Virus record (IMG/VR): IMGVR_UViG_3300034236_000020 | Location: 1-45,030 of that record | Origin: a virus | Direction: 5' to 3' (one strand) | DNA: 45,030 nt | Shown here: positions 1,178 through 12,407 of the stretch, piece by piece | How positions within the stretch are numbered: the first letter of the stretch is position 1 | Layout: each line of letters starts with the position of its first letter | Notes under the pieces: model-generated | What the model was told of the DNA's origin: nothing | The model's input: the letters and a program-made list of their open reading frames with translations, nothing else | Databases searched by the model: none | Made by a program: the position numbers and the translations under genes

Positions 1178-1267
1178 CCCGTGGTAGACGAATGGTAAAG
1201 TCAGAGTGTCGTACGCACTCTAAAATACTCCAAAGGTATGAGGGTTCGACTCCCTTTCACGGGGCCA
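1178..1267 (+). tRNA. tRNA-Tyr(GTA)-like, class II
   Basis: Acceptor CCCGTGG (1178-1184) pairs with TCACGGG (1257-1263), followed by G1264 and an encoded CCA (1265-1267). The D loop contains GG, the anticodon stem is GAGTG/CACTC, the long variable arm has ATAC/GTAT, and the T arm is GAGGG-TTCGACT-CCCTT. The anticodon at positions 34-36 is GTA, which together with the long arm points to tyrosine. Two things are odd: the loop reads TCGTACG, so position 33 is C instead of the near-universal U, and the discriminator is G whereas bacterial tRNA-Tyr usually has A. It is either a divergent tRNA or a tRNA in decay. Confidence 0.7.
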
Positions 1268-2114: not shown

Positions 2115-5100
2115 TTATTGACCAAAGTTGTTTGTAGTAAATGGTGCAGCCAAAATGCTAACCGTGGTCACGGAATCCAGTGAACCAAAGTAGCTCAGCG
2201 CGCCGGCGTTAAACGGATTACCGAAGTGATGGATGAAACCTGAATCCAATACAGTAGGCTGGTCACCAAGCATATGCTCAGCTGCCAAAAGAGCCAGCAC
2301 CCGACCAGGTGCATCCTTGTAGATACGACCAAGCACCTTCTGGATGCGGACGTAGTACTTCGAGAACATGATCAACCCCGTGTCATTAGCGTACTGGATT
2401 TTCCGGTGCGTCGGGACGTCGTAGTTGATGAATGCTTCAGAAGCACGCTGCACTGCTTGCTCATGGTTCATCGACTTGATGTCATGCTGGTACAGCGTGT
2501 ACCGGGCCAGGAAGTCACTGATCTGCGTGGCATAGCTCATCATCTTGTATGGTGCCGTGCTGTGGTGCATTGTCAGCAGCTGCGTAGCCTTCAGGATGTG
2601 TGGATTGATCCCGTCGATAAAGCCGTCCACCTTTTCAGTGAAGCGGGACTTGTACGAGTAGATGTCCTCATCAACGCCCACATCTTCCACGATGGTAGGC
2701 ATCAAGCCAGCATCAATCAATGGACGGATTGGGTTACGAGCCAGGCTGTCTTCCAGACGCTGGATCAAGTACTTGGCTTTGGCCGAATCCATACCCGGCT
2801 CAAAATGGCCGATGTTTTGCTGATGCTTTAAAGCAAACAGCTTGGCGTTGTCTTGCTTGTATTCCCAAGCCGATTTAAACGCTACACGGTGGCTATCAAA
2901 AATCTGCTTTGGTGATACACCCATCAGGAAGAGCTGTGACCAGTTCGACCGTAGGTTACCTGTCATGGTCGACCAGCTCTTGACCACCAGGTTGGCCTTC
3001 GTCTCTTTGACGATCGCTTGCCAGATATCTTCCGACTGACGTGCACGCAGCTGAGCTTTGTCCTTAAAGGCGTAGCTCATGATTTCAACGAACATGTTTT
3101 CGACGAAGCTGCGCTGTGCCTTTTCCTTGTCGAATACCGAGCCAATGCTCAGCTTACGATAGCCGAAATTGATATCCAGGATATCGTTGCGGACCATCAT
3201 GCCATCCTTACCAAACAGGTTCTTAGCCAACTGCTGTGTTTCTCGCGGCAGCATGTCCCAGATTTCCCGCAGCTGTGGATCGGTCGATGTCGGACCAACC
3301 TGCAAGTAAGTTTCCGGATGATCGGCAAAGTCCAGCTTGTATTGCTCATGCAATGCCTTGATCGCGTTAGCGTTCTGCACCTTAGATGCTACTTTGTCGA
3401 AGGTGTTACCAGCCATTGAGCCCAGCAGGTGATCGGTGCGGTTGTCGCGGTTAAGCAGCTTGTCTTTAACGACATTGCTCATCATGTAGCGGTAGTTCGT
3501 TACATCACCATTTGGATTAAGCACTGGTGCCATGTGGGCTTCTTTGCTCACCGTTGGATCGAAGCCGGTACCAGTGAACATGCTTTGAATGGCCGCACGC
3601 TTGCCGGCACGAATAGCAGCCATGTTTGCGATGTTCTGTTGGCCAGCTACCGATACTGGATGTGCCCCATTGATTACCTGGCTGCCCTTGGCTTTAGAAT
3701 CAGTCGTGCTGATGATGCCCGAGTTCCATTGCTTGAGACCACCATCACGCAAAGAGTAGATCCGCTTTTGTTCACTGACAGGATCCGCTGCATCGCGTGG
3801 CAAATAGCCGGGCATAGCCGTATAGCCTTTTTTGATCAACTGCAGACCTTCGTCATCAGTAGCCATCACCACCGTCATGTATGGATCATAGACTTCAGGT
3901 ACATAACCTTTCATCTGCAAAGCTTCGCTGTCTGAAAACAGTTTGTCTTTGCTTTCGACCTGCAATGCCGTGTGAGTCTTCATGATCATTTCAATGCCAT
4001 GACCACCATCGGTGCGTGCAGCTTCCGCATCAAAGACTTCAGATACCAATTTCATATCAACACGGCTGGCATACTTCATTGCATACAACGAAGCCAGACG
4101 ATCAATGATTGGCGTGGCTGCCTGAACCTGTGCCGTAGTAACACTGGCCGCCATACCCGTACCATACAAGCGTGCGATGTTCCCAGCATTCATCAACTGG
4201 TGAGCCGTGGCGACCTTACTAGTAGCCATGAAGTAACCCAGCCCTTTAGCTGAGTTGATATAGAACCTGTTCATCTTGCCACCAGCAACTAGCTGTGCTT
4301 CATGCTGATCAATTTCAGTCTGCAGATCAGTTGAGCTGTTGACCAGGTTTTGCAGTTGGGCCACCGTATAGGTACCCAGCAGAGACTGCATGTCACCACG
4401 CAATACCACCGCGGTCATTGCTTTCTTATGTTCATCCGTCAGGTCTTCACCATCATTGGCAAAGGATCCTGTTACTGCTTTTGAAATGCTGCTGATAGTG
4501 TCCTTGCGAATACCTTCCAGGTGCTTAGTACTACGCAACAGGAAGTGGTAAACCTTGTTCAAGTCGGTTGCACCACGTACTTCATTGAGCAATGAAGCAG
4601 CTACACCCAGTTGCCCAGTCATCGTCTTATCGCGCAAGCGTAGGTAGGCTTCCATGATCCCATCAACACGATCGCCTGCTACGGTAGACAGAGTGTTACC
4701 TGCCAGTTTAACGAAAGCATTTGCGTTGTTCTGGAAGAACGGCTTCTTACCAAATGCTTCAACCGCATCACGTACCTTGTCGCTCATGTCCTCGGCGGTA
4801 TCAGCAATGCTGTTCAACGCTTGCGATGCACGAGAGATCATACGTTCATTGCGCTTGGCTTCGATTTCAACCATCTGCTTGACCAGAGCATTGAGCTTTT
4901 GGTCTGCTTGCTGGCCACGGAAAGTATTGGTCAGGCGGCCGGCTACCCAGCTCATAACCGTATTGAAAATCTTATTCAGTCGTTCGTTGAAACCCATGCT
5001 TGGGTTACTCGTAGCACCGGTAGCGGTGTTGAAATTCAACAGCTCACGGAAGCCAGAATGTACCAATCCCAGGGCAGCGAAGCGGCTCATGTAATCGCTC

Positions 5101-8100
5101 TTGCCCGTGGCATCTTGTTTGATAGCGAAGACAAAATCGTACAGTGCTTGTGCCTGGTCTTTTTCAATCTGAGTAGCTGTGGCCCAATCGCCTTTATGGA
5201 ATGACTCAACCGTTAGCTTGGCACGGACCTCGTTATAGAGACGGGTCATTTCCTTGTAAGCTACCGTCATCACACCGTCATTGTTCGACAGTGCAGTGCG
5301 CATGGTGGCTTCAACTTGTTCGAGTACGAAAGCTTCCTGGTTGGTGAAACCAAAACCAGCAGCCAAAGATTCAGATGCAAATGGAGCCTCACCGGTGCTC
5401 AATGCCTGGGCGTAAACATCAAGCGGATCCTGTGCTGTTTGTTCCATCAATGCAGCTTTGAAGGAACCGAAAGGACCATACACTGACTTAACCAGCGTAG
5501 AGAGCAACCCTTGCAAATGAGTATCATGTTCAGCACTGATCTGTGCACCATTGTTCGACTGAGCCAGGGCAGCATAGATGTCCTGAGTACTTAGGTTACG
5601 TACTGGTTGGGTCTGGCTTAACGACCGAAGTTGAGTAGGTGCTGCAGTGGTTTTGCTTGTCTTGTTCAGCAAGCCTGCCACGTTGGTGATCAGCACATCC
5701 ATACCAGTTGCCATCGCATCATTCGGGCGGCCGAAAACCAGTGAGGAAAGAATCTTCACGAAGGTTTTCATACCGTTCAACAAGTAGCTGCCGGCGTTCT
5801 TTGGTGCCATCTCAATGCCAACCAGCACAGCCTGGAAATCGGTATTGGTCATGCCCCAGCTCACCAGTTCATGGACATTACTGGTGGCGTTACCAAACTT
5901 CCCTGTTTCACCAGTGGCAGCCAAACGGGCTTCTACTTTCTCACGCAATACTTCAAGCTCTTGCACCATTTCGTAAGCAGCACCCTTGCCATCGGCTTGG
6001 GATTGCTCAATGATCTGGGCCAGCGCAGCATGGGTAAGTTCGTGCATCAGCAGTTCAGTCGTCAAGCCAGAAGACTTGAATTCAGGTGCCATGACGTAGA
6101 TCACGTTACCACCCAGGACATACCAGCCACGGGAGTTAGCTTCAGCACCATTGATCAGCTCAGCTGGTAACGTGTCCTTGGTCACGTAACGGATTGTCAG
6201 GTCAACATCAGCACGCTTGGCCAGCTGATTGAGTAGATTCTTCTGGAACTGATCAGTCAATTTTGTACTCAGCATTGACGCTACTTCAGTTAGTGTCATT
6301 ACTGGTTTAGCCGTGAATGCTGCTACCAAATCTTTGTCTGAAGCGATCGCAGATTTCCCAAGCTCTGCCACTGGCGAACCTTTGGTTTTCGTATCCATTT
6401 CCGGATCGGCTTTGACCTTTGGCGCTTTCGGATCACGCTTGGCCAACTCTGCTTTGATCGCTGCTTCCAGCTTATCGCTGACAGTGGTGAGGGCCAAGCG
6501 GTCGACGTCTGAAACACCGACCTCAAGCGCCGAGCGCAGCGAGGCCGCCGAGGAACGGTGAGAAGACTCGACAGCGAAGGCACCACCTTCCATCGCATAT
6601 TGATTCACTGAGACCATCGTTGCCATGGTGTCCAACTTCATACTGTCAGCACGGTAAGCCAGGGACTGGGCTAACTCAGCCTGCAGGTACAGAACTCCTT
6701 CAGCTGGTGCTTCATGTTTCTCAGCGAAGTCAACGAGCGATACAGCCAGCTTGGTCAGGATTGCATCAGATACTTTACCCGCTGCCATCATGGCGTTGAG
6801 TCCACGTACTGTGCGCAGCAATGCATCACGTACCTCAGACGCCGGCGAGTAGTTGAGCATCGTGTCCCACGTCGCTTCGTTCATGCTACGTGCAGTTTCG
6901 ATGATGCCACCCACGCCATGACCTTGTGCATCGTGAATGTTCAAGGCTTTGCCCTCCTTGTTTGCTCGTACCGAAATAGCCGAGTCGGCCGAGTGCATGC
7001 TGACTGGGACCATAGCCACACCTGGTCCAGCAGGGGATACTTCATAGCCGTGAACCTGGGTGGACTTGCTGCCATCAGCGAAAGGCTGGCCGAACTTCAC
7101 CACATTCTGATAGGTGTCTTTGTCCGAGAGCTTACGCTCGGCTTTGGCCACCATGATGCCTGCCTTCAGGTTGTTTGATTCCTGAGACATAGGCGTGTTC
7201 ATTACCGGCATCAAGGCAGCCGTCTGCTTACGTAGGTCTGCTTCCTGTGCATTGGTGAGATCATGCAACGGTACACCAGTAGTCTTGTTGACTGCGATCT
7301 CACCGTCAGCAATAAGCTGAGTCGTCAGCTCTTCACGCAGTCCCTGGTACACCGCGTTGTACACTTCAAACGTCAGCTGTGCAGTTTTGTTGAACTCAGT
7401 ACGCTGCGCGATGAACACTTCAAAGTCTTGCTTCATCGTTTCTTCAACGGCCTTACCCAAGGATTCCTTGAACACTGTCTTGAGTTGACGCGTTTGCTGT
7501 GCTGTGAACTCATGTTCCATGAGCTCCACGTTACCAGGCAGACGAACACCCAGACCAACCAGGTGCTGCAAGATATCGCTGTTCGACATCTCACCTTCTT
7601 CAATGACCGAGTAGATTGAGTCAATGAAGTTGTCAGCCATCGAATCAACTGCATTGTTCACCGACGAACCAAATACCATAGCCGTCAACGGAGTCTTGAT
7701 GATGTTCCGGCCTGCCTTCTGCACAACGCCTTTGCTATCAGCTAGTTCGCCGGTAAAGGCGTAGATCGAAGCCATGAGAGCAGGATCCAGATTGGCAGCA
7801 TTGATCGCTTGCGTCATGTGCAAAGCAGTGTTTTCGTACAGGTCGAAATTCTCTGGTGCATCGCGCCAGTTGTTGTATTCGATGTGCTCACTACCTTGCT
7901 GAAAGAAACCACCACGGTTCAGTAAGGCGTACATTTCCTTGACCGAGTTCGCTGCACCAAGCAACAGATGCGACAGCATCGGGCCATTTGTTACACCGTC
8001 AACCTCAGCCATCATTTGAGTAGTGAAATCTGACTTGCCTTCCTTCTTGGCCAACGCCATCTGGGCCATGGCCATCAGTGCGTCGAGCGAGTGCATGTCT

Positions 8101-11100
8101 TCACCACCAGCTTTAACACCAGCGACCAATACAGTCTGATCATTCTCGGACAAGACACCACTATCGGTACCGGTCAATGACTTCACCAGGACGACCACGG
8201 CTGCTTTGATTTCTGGCTTAGCGATAGTCGTAGTGAACTTAGCTAACGCTTTTTCTTTGCTCAGCTTATCCGTCTTGACCCCTAATCCCTCTGCTACGCG
8301 CAGCTTGAAATTCGTCATGGCTTCGGTATCACCAAAGGCAATTTTTGTTTCCCAGGCCGAGCGATACAGCATGTGACGGTGAATCTTGCTGGTCTGTGGA
8401 TTGATCATGTTCGTGGCAATACCGACACGCTGCTGCATCCAGACAGAGTGTTCAAAGTACATAGGCGTATCAGTACCAGCCTGGCCAACGTACCCCATGA
8501 ACCGATCGAGCTCGCGTGCCAGTCCATCATTCTTGGCTTGCAGCGACTTACGACGACTCTTGTGCACGATCTTGGAAGGATCTTCCTGACCTGCGATCTG
8601 TAGCATTGTGTCAGGGGACACCTGGCCAGCCAGATTGAACATGTCAGAGCGTACATAGCTCGCTTCAGCATCATCATGCTTTACCTGCTCGGCCAGTTCC
8701 GATGGAATGGCCATGTTGGTATTGCGTGTCGTTTTCTGCGTAGCAGTAATAGGCTGTGTGCCAGGAGCCTTCAGGGAAGGTTCCACACCAAACAGCTTGT
8801 CGAGGATCCCTTGGGATCCTTTATTAGCCTGGAAGATCGCCTCAGCCTTTTCGTTGAGATTACCATCGGTGCGAGCCAATTTAAGGAAGTAGAACTTAGC
8901 ATTGGTGTCGGTTGCTTTGCTCTTCGTGAGTTCAGCCATCTCAGTACCGGTCACCGTATTGCGGACCAGGATCCCCTGATCAAGCAACAGTTTCATGGCA
9001 TGTGCACCAACTGACGATTCCAGTTTGGATTGTAAATCCCGCGGTGCGGAAGCCAAGGATTTAAGACCCAAGCTTGCGACGATGCGTTGGCCCAAAGCAT
9101 TGGCCACGATGTTCTGGCGAGTACCGATGTGCTCTAGCTTGTTGTATTCGATTGTCGATACTGGGGCGGTTTCATCCCGACCAAGGATTGCATTGATATC
9201 TTCTTTGGTGTTGAGCTCAGGACGTGTAGCTGCTTCAGCGGTCCAGCTGAATGCAGCATAGGCGATAGCCGTTATCGTATTCTCGTCGAGCTGGCCCTGT
9301 TCATTCATCAGGAACTGGATCAGATCCTCATAGCCATAACCTGGGTTACCTTTCTTGAGGTTGGCCGTGATGTTACCTGCCCATGCCGTAGCTGTAGCAA
9401 GGAAGGTTTTCAGTACCAGTTTTTGCTCATCAGTTGGTGCTTCTTTTGAAGCCAAGAAATCTGATAGCTTGAATCCTTCAGCCTTGTTCTTCCATGCTGA
9501 GAGAAAGTTGACCATCTTGGCAAGTGGGCGCTGGGTACCAGTGTCTTCATTACCTGCTGTCTGGGCAAAGTGAGTCCCGACCAGGTTCTGTTCCTGGTAC
9601 GGTACCGACGAATCATGTTCGGTATCGAACACAGTGAGAGTGGTAGTTTTCTCTTTTACTTCTGCCACCGCTTCAGCCGGCGTAGCCTCTGCAACGGGCG
9701 CAGGGTTCGCTTCGCTCACCGCTGCTGGTTGCTCGGCCACTGCCGTCTTCGCTGGCTGATCATTGATGGTGCGGTTACCTTTTGTGTCTGAACTAGACAC
9801 AATTCCTTCCTGCTCCATCTCTTCTAAGATACGGGCAGCCCGGTTGTAACCTACCTTGAGGTGCTTCTGCACATTGGTGATACTGGCATTTTTAGAGCCA
9901 ATGACATGCTCAACTGCTGCGTCATAGAGGGTGTCTTTTTCAGCTGGATTTTCAGCTGCTTTGGTATCAGCTTCTTTTCTGGCGGCGGTAGCCGCTGCTG
10001 CTTCCGCGACCGCAGCTTCTTGTTTTGCATTGCGTTCACGACCAGCTTCAAGTTTAGATTTAGGCTTAGGTGGAGTGCTAGCGGTGGGGGGTTCAGCTGG
10101 TACAGCTGGACGTGCGGTGTCCTCCTCATTTGTTGGGGTATCGATATTTCCGGAAGGTACACTGTCTTGCTTGGAGGATTTGGATTGTACGCCAAATTTT
10201 AAGGTAGTGGCGGAATTCATTTCGGTATGGGTGGCACGCAACGCTTTTGCCTCATTGGCGATCTCATTGACCAGGCGAGCAGATTTCATGCTCAAGCCGC
10301 CACCGGAACGCAATATCTTCTCCGAATACGTATCAGATGGATATGCTTTCCATCCACTGTTTGTTTTAATGATCTGACTACCCAGGCCAAAATCCCTGAT
10401 TGCTTGACGTGCTGCGGTTGCTTTGTCTTCATGGTCAGTGGCGAAATTACCCAACATACCAAGGTTGCGCTTGGCAGTTGGTTCATTGTCAGAAGCGATT
10501 GCCGCGGCAATACGTGAACGATACTGAGCAATACCCACGTTCTTGTTTGAACCGTACAGTACCTCTTGAGATACCTTCGATTGAGTAGACAGAGCATTCT
10601 CAGCCTGTCGAGCATCACTGAACACACGTAGATGAGCACGCTGTTCATCAGTAAGTGAGTTGGTGGTGTCATCAGCCAGCTTCAATGCTTCTGTATGTGA
10701 CAGAGCATCAGGTTGAGTCATCGACAGGTTGATCAGCCGAGTAGCTGCTGTGTTGTCAGCTGCTGCCGCGGTAACCAGGGTACTTACTTCATCTGGAGTG
10801 GCAGCAGCCTCATTAGCATTGACCAATCCACCCATAAAGTTACGACCGGTAGAGAGCTGGCGATCCAGGGAAGCCAAGGTAGCACGGGACTTTCCTGCTG
10901 CCTGGGTATCGGTGGCATCAGCCAATACGTCTTTCCAACCATCACGGAAATCCTTCAGCTCGGCAACTTTAGCTGCATCCGTAGGGTACTTAGCAATCTC
11001 AGCTTCGTAGTGAGCAATCTTGGTTTTGGCTTCAGCGATACTGGCTGGCGAGAAGGTATCAGCATCTTCTGTTGCCTTGGCATGCTGCTCTTCCAGCTGG

Positions 11101-12407
11101 GATAACAGCTCACCTGCTTTTTTCAGGTTCTCTGCTTTGACTTCAGGAGCGGTATCCGGCTTCATGGCATGAGCCACAAGCACACCCATCCCACGAGACA
11201 GATCGTAATCTGGGCTCTTTGGGTTGGTGAATGCTGTGATGTCATTGTTGGCCACGGCATCAGCAACCTTCTGCTTTGTCTCAGCAGTAGTGACACGTTC
11301 TTGAGTTTGCTTGGTTTCAGCATTAGGACTCTTGTGCAAGCCAGCCATACCTACACCCATTGCAGCACCAGCCACCAGGCCGGCACCTGCAGCGTTAGCC
11401 ACGCCCTTCATGTGATCTTCTTCGCCCATGGCGATGTTCGTGAAGTATTGTTCCTGTGCTGATTGTGGAAGCTCTTCAGTAACACCTTCGGAGAACGCTT
11501 CCTTACCGATCTTAGCCAGCTTTGATCCGGTCAACGTGCGTGCACCAGTGGCCAGATCGGTTGCTGCGTCACCAAATACTTTGTTCGACACTACACCGAT
11601 GCCCGCTGTGACAGCACCAGCAGCCAGAGCAGGTAAAGCATAGTCGGAGTACTCACGACCAGCGGCCTGAGCTTGATCAGCTACAGTACCAGCTGTTTGA
11701 GCACCCTCGACACCGGCACCAATAGCCGACAAGCGGAAACCGGCAGCCTCAATAGCTGCCTTGGCCGCGGTGGATCCTGCTTCTGTACCTAGTGCAGCAG
11801 TCTCAGCCATACCAACTTTGCCAGCGGCGGTTGCTGCTTCGGCTGCCAGACGTCCTTCGATAGTTGACATGGCTGCTTTTACGGCGATGCCCCGTGCAGC
11901 TGCACCAGCTACACCCATACCTGCCAACATGGCAGGAAGGGATTCAGTCACACTACCCAAAATCGAACGAGGGTTTGCCAGTGAGGTGATTACCGTATCA
12001 CTGAAGCCTTCGGCATCACGCACTTTGGCATCAGCTGCCTTCTGTGCTTTGCTCAGGTATTCTCCCAGTACTTCATTAGTGGCTGCTGGGTCATAACCAA
12101 TTTCCCGCATAGCATTACCGACGGCCCCACCAGAAGCCAACGAACCCAAGCCGACCACTGAAGCACCCAGGTTGACTGCACCTTGTCCCAGCTTGACACC
12201 GATATCACTGACCGTACCAAGAACGTCAGTTTGATTAACTGTAGGGTTAGCATCCCTTAATGCCTGTGTTTTCAGCGCAGTCTGATACTCCGAATCCAGC
12301 TGGGCCATCTTAGTCTGACGGGCTGCCGAGATCTCTGCCATTTTACGGTCAAGGATCTCATCGCTCACTTTAGGCGTCGAAAGGCTGGTATAGACTGAAT
12401 CGGTCAT
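2115..12407 (-). CDS. virion RNA polymerase, N4 gp50-like, with FtsK-gamma and zincin-like domains
   Basis: A 3430-residue protein packaged in the capsid and injected with the DNA, where the N4 homologue transcribes early genes from hairpin promoters. Visible order: an Ala/Gly-rich, helix-rich N-terminal part with hydrophobic segments (about 70-370) suited to ejection; charged Ala/Pro linkers; an FtsK-gamma winged helix (about 826-882, GYNRAARI); a T7-type polymerase from about 920 to 2040; a zincin-like motif HELTH at 2122-2126; and a long C-terminal region. Polymerase motifs are R1327 in QQRVG, D1470 (motif A, EVDGVTNGP), R1567 and K1571 (motif B) and D1826 (motif C, NIHDAQ), with spacing close to that of N4. 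At K1571+8, where T7 has Y639 and N4 Y678, this protein has Phe. It is the last late gene on the leftward strand. Confidence 0.95.
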   Translation of the reverse strand: MTDSVYTSLSTPKVSDEILDRKMAEISAARQTKMAQLDSEYQTALKTQALRDANPTVNQTDVLGTVSDIGVKLGQGAVNLGASVVGLGSLASGGAVGNAMREIGYDPAATNEVLGEYLSKAQKAADAKVRDAEGFSDTVITSLANPRSILGSVTESLPAMLAGMGVAGAAARGIAVKAAMSTIEGRLAAEAATAAGKVGMAETAALGTEAGSTAAKAAIEAAGFRLSAIGAGVEGAQTAGTVADQAQAAGREYSDYALPALAAGAVTAGIGVVSNKVFGDAATDLATGARTLTGSKLAKIGKEAFSEGVTEELPQSAQEQYFTNIAMGEEDHMKGVANAAGAGLVAGAAMGVGMAGLHKSPNAETKQTQERVTTAETKQKVADAVANNDITAFTNPKSPDYDLSRGMGVLVAHAMKPDTAPEVKAENLKKAGELLSQLEEQHAKATEDADTFSPASIAEAKTKIAHYEAEIAKYPTDAAKVAELKDFRDGWKDVLADATDTQAAGKSRATLASLDRQLSTGRNFMGGLVNANEAAATPDEVSTLVTAAAADNTAATRLINLSMTQPDALSHTEALKLADDTTNSLTDEQRAHLRVFSDARQAENALSTQSKVSQEVLYGSNKNVGIAQYRSRIAAAIASDNEPTAKRNLGMLGNFATDHEDKATAARQAIRDFGLGSQIIKTNSGWKAYPSDTYSEKILRSGGGLSMKSARLVNEIANEAKALRATHTEMNSATTLKFGVQSKSSKQDSVPSGNIDTPTNEEDTARPAVPAEPPTASTPPKPKSKLEAGRERNAKQEAAVAEAAAATAARKEADTKAAENPAEKDTLYDAAVEHVIGSKNASITNVQKHLKVGYNRAARILEEMEQEGIVSSSDTKGNRTINDQPAKTAVAEQPAAVSEANPAPVAEATPAEAVAEVKEKTTTLTVFDTEHDSSVPYQEQNLVGTHFAQTAGNEDTGTQRPLAKMVNFLSAWKNKAEGFKLSDFLASKEAPTDEQKLVLKTFLATATAWAGNITANLKKGNPGYGYEDLIQFLMNEQGQLDENTITAIAYAAFSWTAEAATRPELNTKEDINAILGRDETAPVSTIEYNKLEHIGTRQNIVANALGQRIVASLGLKSLASAPRDLQSKLESSVGAHAMKLLLDQGILVRNTVTGTEMAELTKSKATDTNAKFYFLKLARTDGNLNEKAEAIFQANKGSQGILDKLFGVEPSLKAPGTQPITATQKTTRNTNMAIPSELAEQVKHDDAEASYVRSDMFNLAGQVSPDTMLQIAGQEDPSKIVHKSRRKSLQAKNDGLARELDRFMGYVGQAGTDTPMYFEHSVWMQQRVGIATNMINPQTSKIHRHMLYRSAWETKIAFGDTEAMTNFKLRVAEGLGVKTDKLSKEKALAKFTTTIAKPEIKAAVVVLVKSLTGTDSGVLSENDQTVLVAGVKAGGEDMHSLDALMAMAQMALAKKEGKSDFTTQMMAEVDGVTNGPMLSHLLLGAANSVKEMYALLNRGGFFQQGSEHIEYNNWRDAPENFDLYENTALHMTQAINAANLDPALMASIYAFTGELADSKGVVQKAGRNIIKTPLTAMVFGSSVNNAVDSMADNFIDSIYSVIEEGEMSNSDILQHLVGLGVRLPGNVELMEHEFTAQQTRQLKTVFKESLGKAVEETMKQDFEVFIAQRTEFNKTAQLTFEVYNAVYQGLREELTTQLIADGEIAVNKTTGVPLHDLTNAQEADLRKQTAALMPVMNTPMSQESNNLKAGIMVAKAERKLSDKDTYQNVVKFGQPFADGSKSTQVHGYEVSPAGPGVAMVPVSMHSADSAISVRANKEGKALNIHDAQGHGVGGIIETARSMNEATWDTMLNYSPASEVRDALLRTVRGLNAMMAAGKVSDAILTKLAVSLVDFAEKHEAPAEGVLYLQAELAQSLAYRADSMKLDTMATMVSVNQYAMEGGAFAVESSHRSSAASLRSALEVGVSDVDRLALTTVSDKLEAAIKAELAKRDPKAPKVKADPEMDTKTKGSPVAELGKSAIASDKDLVAAFTAKPVMTLTEVASMLSTKLTDQFQKNLLNQLAKRADVDLTIRYVTKDTLPAELINGAEANSRGWYVLGGNVIYVMAPEFKSSGLTTELLMHELTHAALAQIIEQSQADGKGAAYEMVQELEVLREKVEARLAATGETGKFGNATSNVHELVSWGMTNTDFQAVLVGIEMAPKNAGSYLLNGMKTFVKILSSLVFGRPNDAMATGMDVLITNVAGLLNKTSKTTAAPTQLRSLSQTQPVRNLSTQDIYAALAQSNNGAQISAEHDTHLQGLLSTLVKSVYGPFGSFKAALMEQTAQDPLDVYAQALSTGEAPFASESLAAGFGFTNQEAFVLEQVEATMRTALSNNDGVMTVAYKEMTRLYNEVRAKLTVESFHKGDWATATQIEKDQAQALYDFVFAIKQDATGKSDYMSRFAALGLVHSGFRELLNFNTATGATSNPSMGFNERLNKIFNTVMSWVAGRLTNTFRGQQADQKLNALVKQMVEIEAKRNERMISRASQALNSIADTAEDMSDKVRDAVEAFGKKPFFQNNANAFVKLAGNTLSTVAGDRVDGIMEAYLRLRDKTMTGQLGVAASLLNEVRGATDLNKVYHFLLRSTKHLEGIRKDTISSISKAVTGSFANDGEDLTDEHKKAMTAVVLRGDMQSLLGTYTVAQLQNLVNSSTDLQTEIDQHEAQLVAGGKMNRFYINSAKGLGYFMATSKVATAHQLMNAGNIARLYGTGMAASVTTAQVQAATPIIDRLASLYAMKYASRVDMKLVSEVFDAEAARTDGGHGIEMIMKTHTALQVESKDKLFSDSEALQMKGYVPEVYDPYMTVVMATDDEGLQLIKKGYTAMPGYLPRDAADPVSEQKRIYSLRDGGLKQWNSGIISTTDSKAKGSQVINGAHPVSVAGQQNIANMAAIRAGKRAAIQSMFTGTGFDPTVSKEAHMAPVLNPNGDVTNYRYMMSNVVKDKLLNRDNRTDHLLGSMAGNTFDKVASKVQNANAIKALHEQYKLDFADHPETYLQVGPTSTDPQLREIWDMLPRETQQLAKNLFGKDGMMVRNDILDINFGYRKLSIGSVFDKEKAQRSFVENMFVEIMSYAFKDKAQLRARQSEDIWQAIVKETKANLVVKSWSTMTGNLRSNWSQLFLMGVSPKQIFDSHRVAFKSAWEYKQDNAKLFALKHQQNIGHFEPGMDSAKAKYLIQRLEDSLARNPIRPLIDAGLMPTIVEDVGVDEDIYSYKSRFTEKVDGFIDGINPHILKATQLLTMHHSTAPYKMMSYATQISDFLARYTLYQHDIKSMNHEQAVQRASEAFINYDVPTHRKIQYANDTGLIMFSKYYVRIQKVLGRIYKDAPGRVLALLAAEHMLGDQPTVLDSGFIHHFGNPFNAGALSYFGSLDSVTTVSILAAPFTTNNFGQ

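Follow-up and report, generated by a model that had tools for sequence, protein, structure and literature searches.

The window, that is the whole stretch of 45,030 nucleotides analysed here, carries on its minus strand, at positions 2115..12407, a gene for a protein of 3430 aa which we assigned to the virion RNA polymerase (vRNAP; N4 gp50-like) from PHROG 2206, from the PDB chains of the N4 vRNAP and from the gene neighbours. PHROG 2206 ("virion RNA polymerase") covers aa 120-3415 of the product (E=0), and the best PDB alignments are obtained with the solved N4 vRNAP chains 11fw, 9pnq and 9pnr: by full-length homology, the product of this ORF is an N4-type vRNAP. The neighbouring genes are N4-like as well (portal, major head protein, large terminase, single-subunit RNAP and DNA polymerase), and homology and gene order together suggest that the enzyme is packaged in the virion and ejected from it. 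The whole window is found again, reversed and 99.998% identical (over 45 kb), in a second viral record of 77,718 bp, which carries the same vRNAP gene, including the FtsK-gamma domain described below. The phage also has a tRNA-Tyr (gta) gene, at window positions 1178-1267.

The N-terminal domain (NTD) of the vRNAP, delimited by alignment with relatives, spans aa 1-739 (10191..12407, on the minus strand, as are all the parts of this gene given hereafter); in N4 it is the membrane-binding, ejection-side domain. The hydrophobicity peaks of the window protein lie near aa 76-97, 149-180 and 257-357, all of them in the NTD. The RNA polymerase domain, placed by alignment with that of N4, extends from about aa 936 to aa 1990 (6438..9602), its end being approximate. 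Its motif A is intact (Asp1469, in DGVTNG), and the motif A Asp is kept in 66 of 66 vRNAPs; motif B is present with Arg/Lys (R..IK..LTAMVFGS, here RNIIK..LTAMVFGS). One position of motif B, Tyr678 in N4 and Tyr639 in T7, is involved in the discrimination between rNTPs and dNTPs, and replacing this Tyr by Phe in T7 relaxes the discrimination of the sugar. The window vRNAP has a Phe at this position (F1579), as have 37 of the 66 full-length relatives, among them LUZ7-type and Litunavirus Pseudomonas phages. Beyond the polymerase, the sequence contains a zincin-type metallopeptidase motif, HELTH, at aa 2122-2126 (6030..6044). Around this motif, aa 2000-2260 (about 5628-6410) form the second strongly divergent stretch with respect to the closest relative, L040 (see below).

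Between the NTD and the polymerase lies a low-complexity linker (aa 740-935), in a region which is hypervariable in all relatives, and it is inside this linker that we find an FtsK-gamma winged-helix domain (aa 823-881, 9765..9941). The N-side interdomain linker (aa 740-822, 9942..10190), recognized by its composition and the counterpart of the N4 linker 907-1006, consists of A/P/E/T/K/Q/S for 76% and of order-promoting residues for 7%. The C-side linker (aa 882-935, 9603..9764), of low complexity too and with a sequence common to gamma-less relatives, consists of A/P/E/T/K/Q/S for 72% and adjoins the RNAP domain. The FtsK_gamma profile PF09397 matches aa 823-881 with 79.8 bits (E 5e-24), and reaches 73.1 bits within the whole protein and 78.1 bits within a 161-aa piece of it, the curated cut-off being 30.6 bits. 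A phmmer search against the PDB returned the FtsK-gamma entries 2j5o, 2ve8 and 2j5p (P. aeruginosa, E. coli) at about 1e-13. In an AlphaFold2 model built from a 27-sequence alignment, the core of gamma has a pLDDT of 91-96 per 10-residue block, while the linkers on either side are mostly below 70. When this model was submitted to Foldseek, the first 13 matches were all FtsK-gamma chains, the best one being that of P. aeruginosa; the predicted domain lies at 0.5-1.1 A from the 2ve8 and 2ve9 chains over 57-59 residues (about 52% identity), and at 0.5-0.9 A from the KOPS-bound 2ve9. By profile, PDB sequence match and predicted fold, aa 823-881 form a genuine winged helix of the FtsK-gamma family. 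A Pfam scan of the whole protein revealed no FtsK alpha-beta AAA+ motor.

These results agree with most of what the first-pass annotation had read from the letters of the DNA. It had proposed an FtsK-gamma winged helix in the vRNAP from a series of motifs, which we located at aa 825-879 (9771-9935); its residue numbers (826-882) and its coordinates are correct to within a few residues. It had placed the domain between Ala/Pro/Glu linkers and directly before the polymerase, as found. It had finally named a profile search and a structure overlay as checks, and the lack of a profile match as the outcome that would speak against it: PF09397 came out far above its cut-off, and a winged helix close to the FtsK-gamma/KOPS structures is predicted.

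The DNA-recognition helix region, GYNRAARILEEME (aa 853-865, 9813..9851), was placed by alignment with the gammas of E. coli and P. aeruginosa. GYNRAAR is intact in it, and VGYNRAA is invariant across the 27 gammas aligned. In this alignment N855, R859 and E862 correspond to N1296, R1300 and E1303 of E. coli FtsK, which we take to be the residues reading KOPS, and all three are unchanged. Gamma may bind KOPS DNA. The alignment of gammas also shows that K848 (9864..9866) replaces R1289 of E. coli, a position at which an Arg is found in 80 of 80 bacterial FtsK and in 29 of 33 phage gammas, both samples having been picked mostly by the KVGYNRAA motif. In E. coli, the change of R1289 is the one which costs most recombination, this residue makes a salt bridge with E184 of XerD, and the XerD contacts of gamma are a subset of its DNA contacts (PMC5052618). 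The Lys weakens the idea of an activation of XerD but does not kill it, because Lys848 could still serve and keep the salt bridge. The XerD-activating surface with Arg1289 belongs to what gamma does in FtsK, and does not define the domain family.

We then consider how gamma is distributed. Among about 102 distinct vRNAPs of full length, collected from two vRNAP scans of viral contigs and from 16 annotated phages, it is found in one, that of the window; this sample contains the best 80 of each scan and misses unsampled clades, and a second gamma-bearing vRNAP beyond it is quite possible. No gamma is present anywhere in 46 other large vRNAP-bearing (N4-like) records. The survey of other vRNAPs, also suggested at the outset, thus finds a domain which is not widespread. 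The closest relative, L040 (a 77.6-kb record whose vRNAP is 81% identical), is devoid of gamma, and the next ones, L052 (57%) and L053 (47%), have a plain linker, which is recognizably homologous on either side of the place where gamma is inserted. Judging from these alignments, gamma is an insertion peculiar to one lineage and not a general feature of N4-type vRNAPs. At the same place L040 has a different insert, EKVVHVGKEFATSLEAEKYLYDNFLGESLKATRKADKSGYVIESRKK, which measures about 60 aa and does not resemble gamma, and for which no Pfam, PHROG or phage match was found. In the corresponding region of 59 vRNAPs, the Pfam domains detected were limited to this gamma and the tail end of a helicase. 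A 3726-aa relative, L068:1229-12406 (IMGVR_UViG_3300001765_000124), has an SF1 helicase between its N-terminal part and its polymerase (AAA_30, E 7e-20, aa 682-855; UvrD_C_2, aa 1066-1118), followed by a zincin-like HELAH motif. Gamma itself points to a slot before the polymerase that accepts cargo, and the helicase of L068 is another such cargo. Gamma is frequent in annotated phages (286 records); among the matches listed there, it is attached to names of the RdgC/exonuclease, small DNA-binding or translocase type, no vRNAP being among them. The nearest gammas found are chromosomal FtsK C-termini, mostly from gamma- and betaproteobacteria, which are 48-62% identical. Many Methylococcaceae are among the matches listed, but these were picked by short peptides and we claim no host from them.

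We also looked for the sites that gamma could read in the phage. In the 77.7 kb record, both strands were searched for copies of KOPS, GGGNAGGG, and of the related motifs GGGCAGGG, GAGAAGGG and GAGAAG. There are 2+1 copies of GGGNAGGG on the two strands, for 3.6+2.2 expected under a dinucleotide model, and 2+4 copies in a gamma-less relative, which is therefore not poorer than the gamma phage; GGGCAGGG is at or below expectation and GAGAAGGG is absent from both strands of this record. Three copies for about six expected, and six in the gamma-less relative, mean that there is neither enrichment nor usable skew. These counts do not support a reading of KOPS by gamma on the genome of the phage itself. 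Gamma could have a preferred site other than KOPS. As for Xer recombination, the best dif-like site in the phage scores 16 of 22, as does random sequence, and no tyrosine recombinase gene was found in the phage. Of the two docking sites that the first-pass annotation had envisaged on this side, KOPS-like sites of the phage are thus not borne out, and XerCD is weakened, both by these negative results and by the Lys replacing Arg1289. The other uses that it had envisaged, on host KOPS or on DNA in general during entry, may still apply.

Several explanations may be given for the presence of gamma. A single lineage, known from metagenomic contigs, could reflect an assembly chimera in which bacterial DNA carrying gamma was joined to phage DNA. 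However, the two records agree over the 45 kb, even if the same reads may underlie both of them. A single open frame runs through gamma, the flanking linker can be matched on either side with that of gamma-less relatives, and among the matches listed no bacterial FtsK is closer than about 62%: we consider a chimera as extremely improbable. Gamma could also be a mere passenger, arrived recently by illegitimate recombination in a permissive linker and playing no important role. Its presence in one vRNAP of the whole sample, its absence from L040 despite 81% identity and the length of the slot, which varies from 47 to 528 aa across the 66 full-length relatives, all fit such a history. The domain is nevertheless full length and in frame, it keeps every invariant position of the family, and its third-position GC matches that of the gene (0.525 vs 0.541). 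Because the invariants are kept at only about 50-60% identity to the nearest bacterial gammas found, gamma has probably been constrained for some time. On the whole, we regard the absence of a role as rather unlikely.

The DNA bound could, on the other hand, be that of the host: gamma would bind host KOPS, or compete with FtsK for KOPS or XerD, and the enzyme would be held on the nucleoid or segregation would be disturbed early in infection. The recognition helix is identical to that of proteobacterial FtsK, the closest relatives of the domain are the chromosomal FtsK C-termini mentioned above, and KOPS is not enriched in the phage genome, three facts which favour host sites; binding to host sites has also been discussed for a terminase-gamma fusion (PMC8190038). 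But only about four copies of the vRNAP are packaged in N4 (PMC12633501), few in comparison with the many KOPS, the Arg most important for XerD is a Lys here, and the phage has neither a dif-like site nor a tyrosine recombinase. Docking on the host chromosome appears doubtful to us.

We tentatively prefer a possibility closer to the architecture of the enzyme: a horizontally acquired, intact FtsK-gamma may work in the vRNAP linker as a dsDNA-binding module near the incoming DNA. In N4, residues 907-1006 of gp50 form a 100-aa low-complexity linker which joins the membrane-inserting NTD to the RNAP and can span about 250 A, the NTD enters nanodiscs, and it has been proposed that the RNAP and the CTD refold in the cytoplasm, held to the membrane by the linker (PMC12633501). 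In the window phage, horizontal transfer would have put gamma into this flexible connection between NTD and polymerase. After ejection the NTD would remain at the inner membrane, the linker would bridge the gap to the polymerase, and gamma would grip dsDNA beside the polymerase, most probably that of the entering phage; in the first minutes of infection, the template would thereby stay close to the enzyme, or the DNA would be protected or retained. The binding of DNA is the safest part of this scheme, given the intact predicted fold and recognition helix. That gamma acts after ejection, and on the phage's own DNA, we infer from its place: hanging on the tether between membrane and polymerase, it would find in the incoming genome the DNA most available to it. 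We count in favour of this proposal the linker shared on both sides with gamma-less relatives, the intact motif A, and the precedents described below for gamma in proteins of the virion or injected type (polyvalent proteins with an FtsK wHTH, L015 and a small terminase fusion). Against it, the lack of enrichment in GGGNAGGG means that a sequence-specific binding to the phage's own DNA has no visible sites, and the binding is probably not through KOPS in the phage genome. None of the relatives sampled has gamma, so that it cannot belong to the core mechanism of entry. Moreover, one KOPS site is bound by three gammas (PMC5357621), and the single gamma of each chain may therefore have a weak hold on DNA.

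It has been proposed that three vRNAPs sit on each ejection tunnel (PMC12633501), which, together with three gammas per KOPS, makes a bolder model conceivable: the plan of FtsK would be rebuilt with the polymerase as motor, with an NTD anchored in the membrane, then a long disordered tether, the transcribing RNAP, and gamma to grip the DNA, and three vRNAPs would supply the three gammas for one KOPS-like site, orienting or loading the polymerase on phage or host DNA during entry. Here one supposition is piled upon another, and we hold this model to be quite improbable. The simpler module, which we prefer, already touches on the question of how N4-type vRNAPs, which are giant injected polymerases, stay with DNA at the membrane. 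A portable and structurally understood dsDNA-binding domain on a tether is also a ready-made probe, which one can delete, exchange or mutate along known lines.

Finally, we compare this vRNAP with known systems. Its gamma resembles those of FtsK/SpoIIIE (P. aeruginosa 2ve8, 2ve9 and 2j5o, E. coli 2j5p; PF09397) by its sequence (about 52%), by its predicted fold and by GYNRAAR; in contrast to FtsK, there is no translocase motor, gamma is internal in a polymerase instead of C-terminal, a Lys replaces Arg1289 at the XerD contact and the phage genome is not enriched in KOPS. The succession of NTD, low-complexity linker, RNAP and CTD, the metallopeptidase motif and the gene neighbourhood are shared with N4 gp50 (Schitoviridae), whose linker is however a 100-aa low-complexity tether (PMC12633501), whereas that of the window vRNAP holds a DNA-binding domain predicted to be folded. 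According to Iyer et al. 2017 (PMC5512222), the FtsK wHTH is one of the rare DNA-binding domains found in polyvalent proteins, and its predicted ligand is dsDNA. N4-type RNAPs are described there as polyvalent proteins themselves, with possible fusions to metallopeptidase, ART, lysozyme and PBECR domains; gamma is not among the fused domains named in the passages considered. The window vRNAP combines an RNAP, a metallopeptidase motif and a predicted DNA-binding domain, and would be a multidomain effector of the polyvalent type if it is transferred with the DNA. Giant multidomain proteins of the injected type with gamma as DNA-binding unit include the phage and plasmid proteins with FtsK wHTH of the same source (Cupriavidus WP_029307715) and L015 (IMGVR_UViG_2654588150_000002), a protein of at least 2884 aa with a lytic transglycosylase, two FtsK-gamma (aa 828 and 979), a pyrophosphatase and an Eco57I-type methylase. 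We had considered L015 as a second gamma-bearing vRNAP and rejected it: unlike the window protein, it is of the lysozyme/pyrophosphatase/methylase type and has no N4 RNAP module. It is a gamma-bearing polyvalent protein, and as such a precedent for gamma in proteins of the virion or injected type. An internal FtsK-gamma is also present in a VapE-like protein of 926 aa (L023:4762-7539). The small terminase of the Bacillus phages Sam46 and Sam112 has an N-terminal FtsK_gamma, and hardly any KOPS were found there (PMC8190038); as in our case, gamma is carried by a DNA-handling protein of a phage with few KOPS, but by a packaging protein and not by a polymerase ejected from the virion. In the literature covered by our search, which lies mostly outside subscription journals, no paper pairs "FtsK gamma" with "virion RNA polymerase", and the passages considered in the papers naming both "vRNAP" and "FtsK" describe no gamma-vRNAP fusion; to this extent, the first-pass annotation was right in taking the fusion for undescribed in N4-type vRNAPs. 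As gamma is already known in polyvalent proteins and in a small terminase, we conclude that the window vRNAP presents an already known theme in a new domain architecture.
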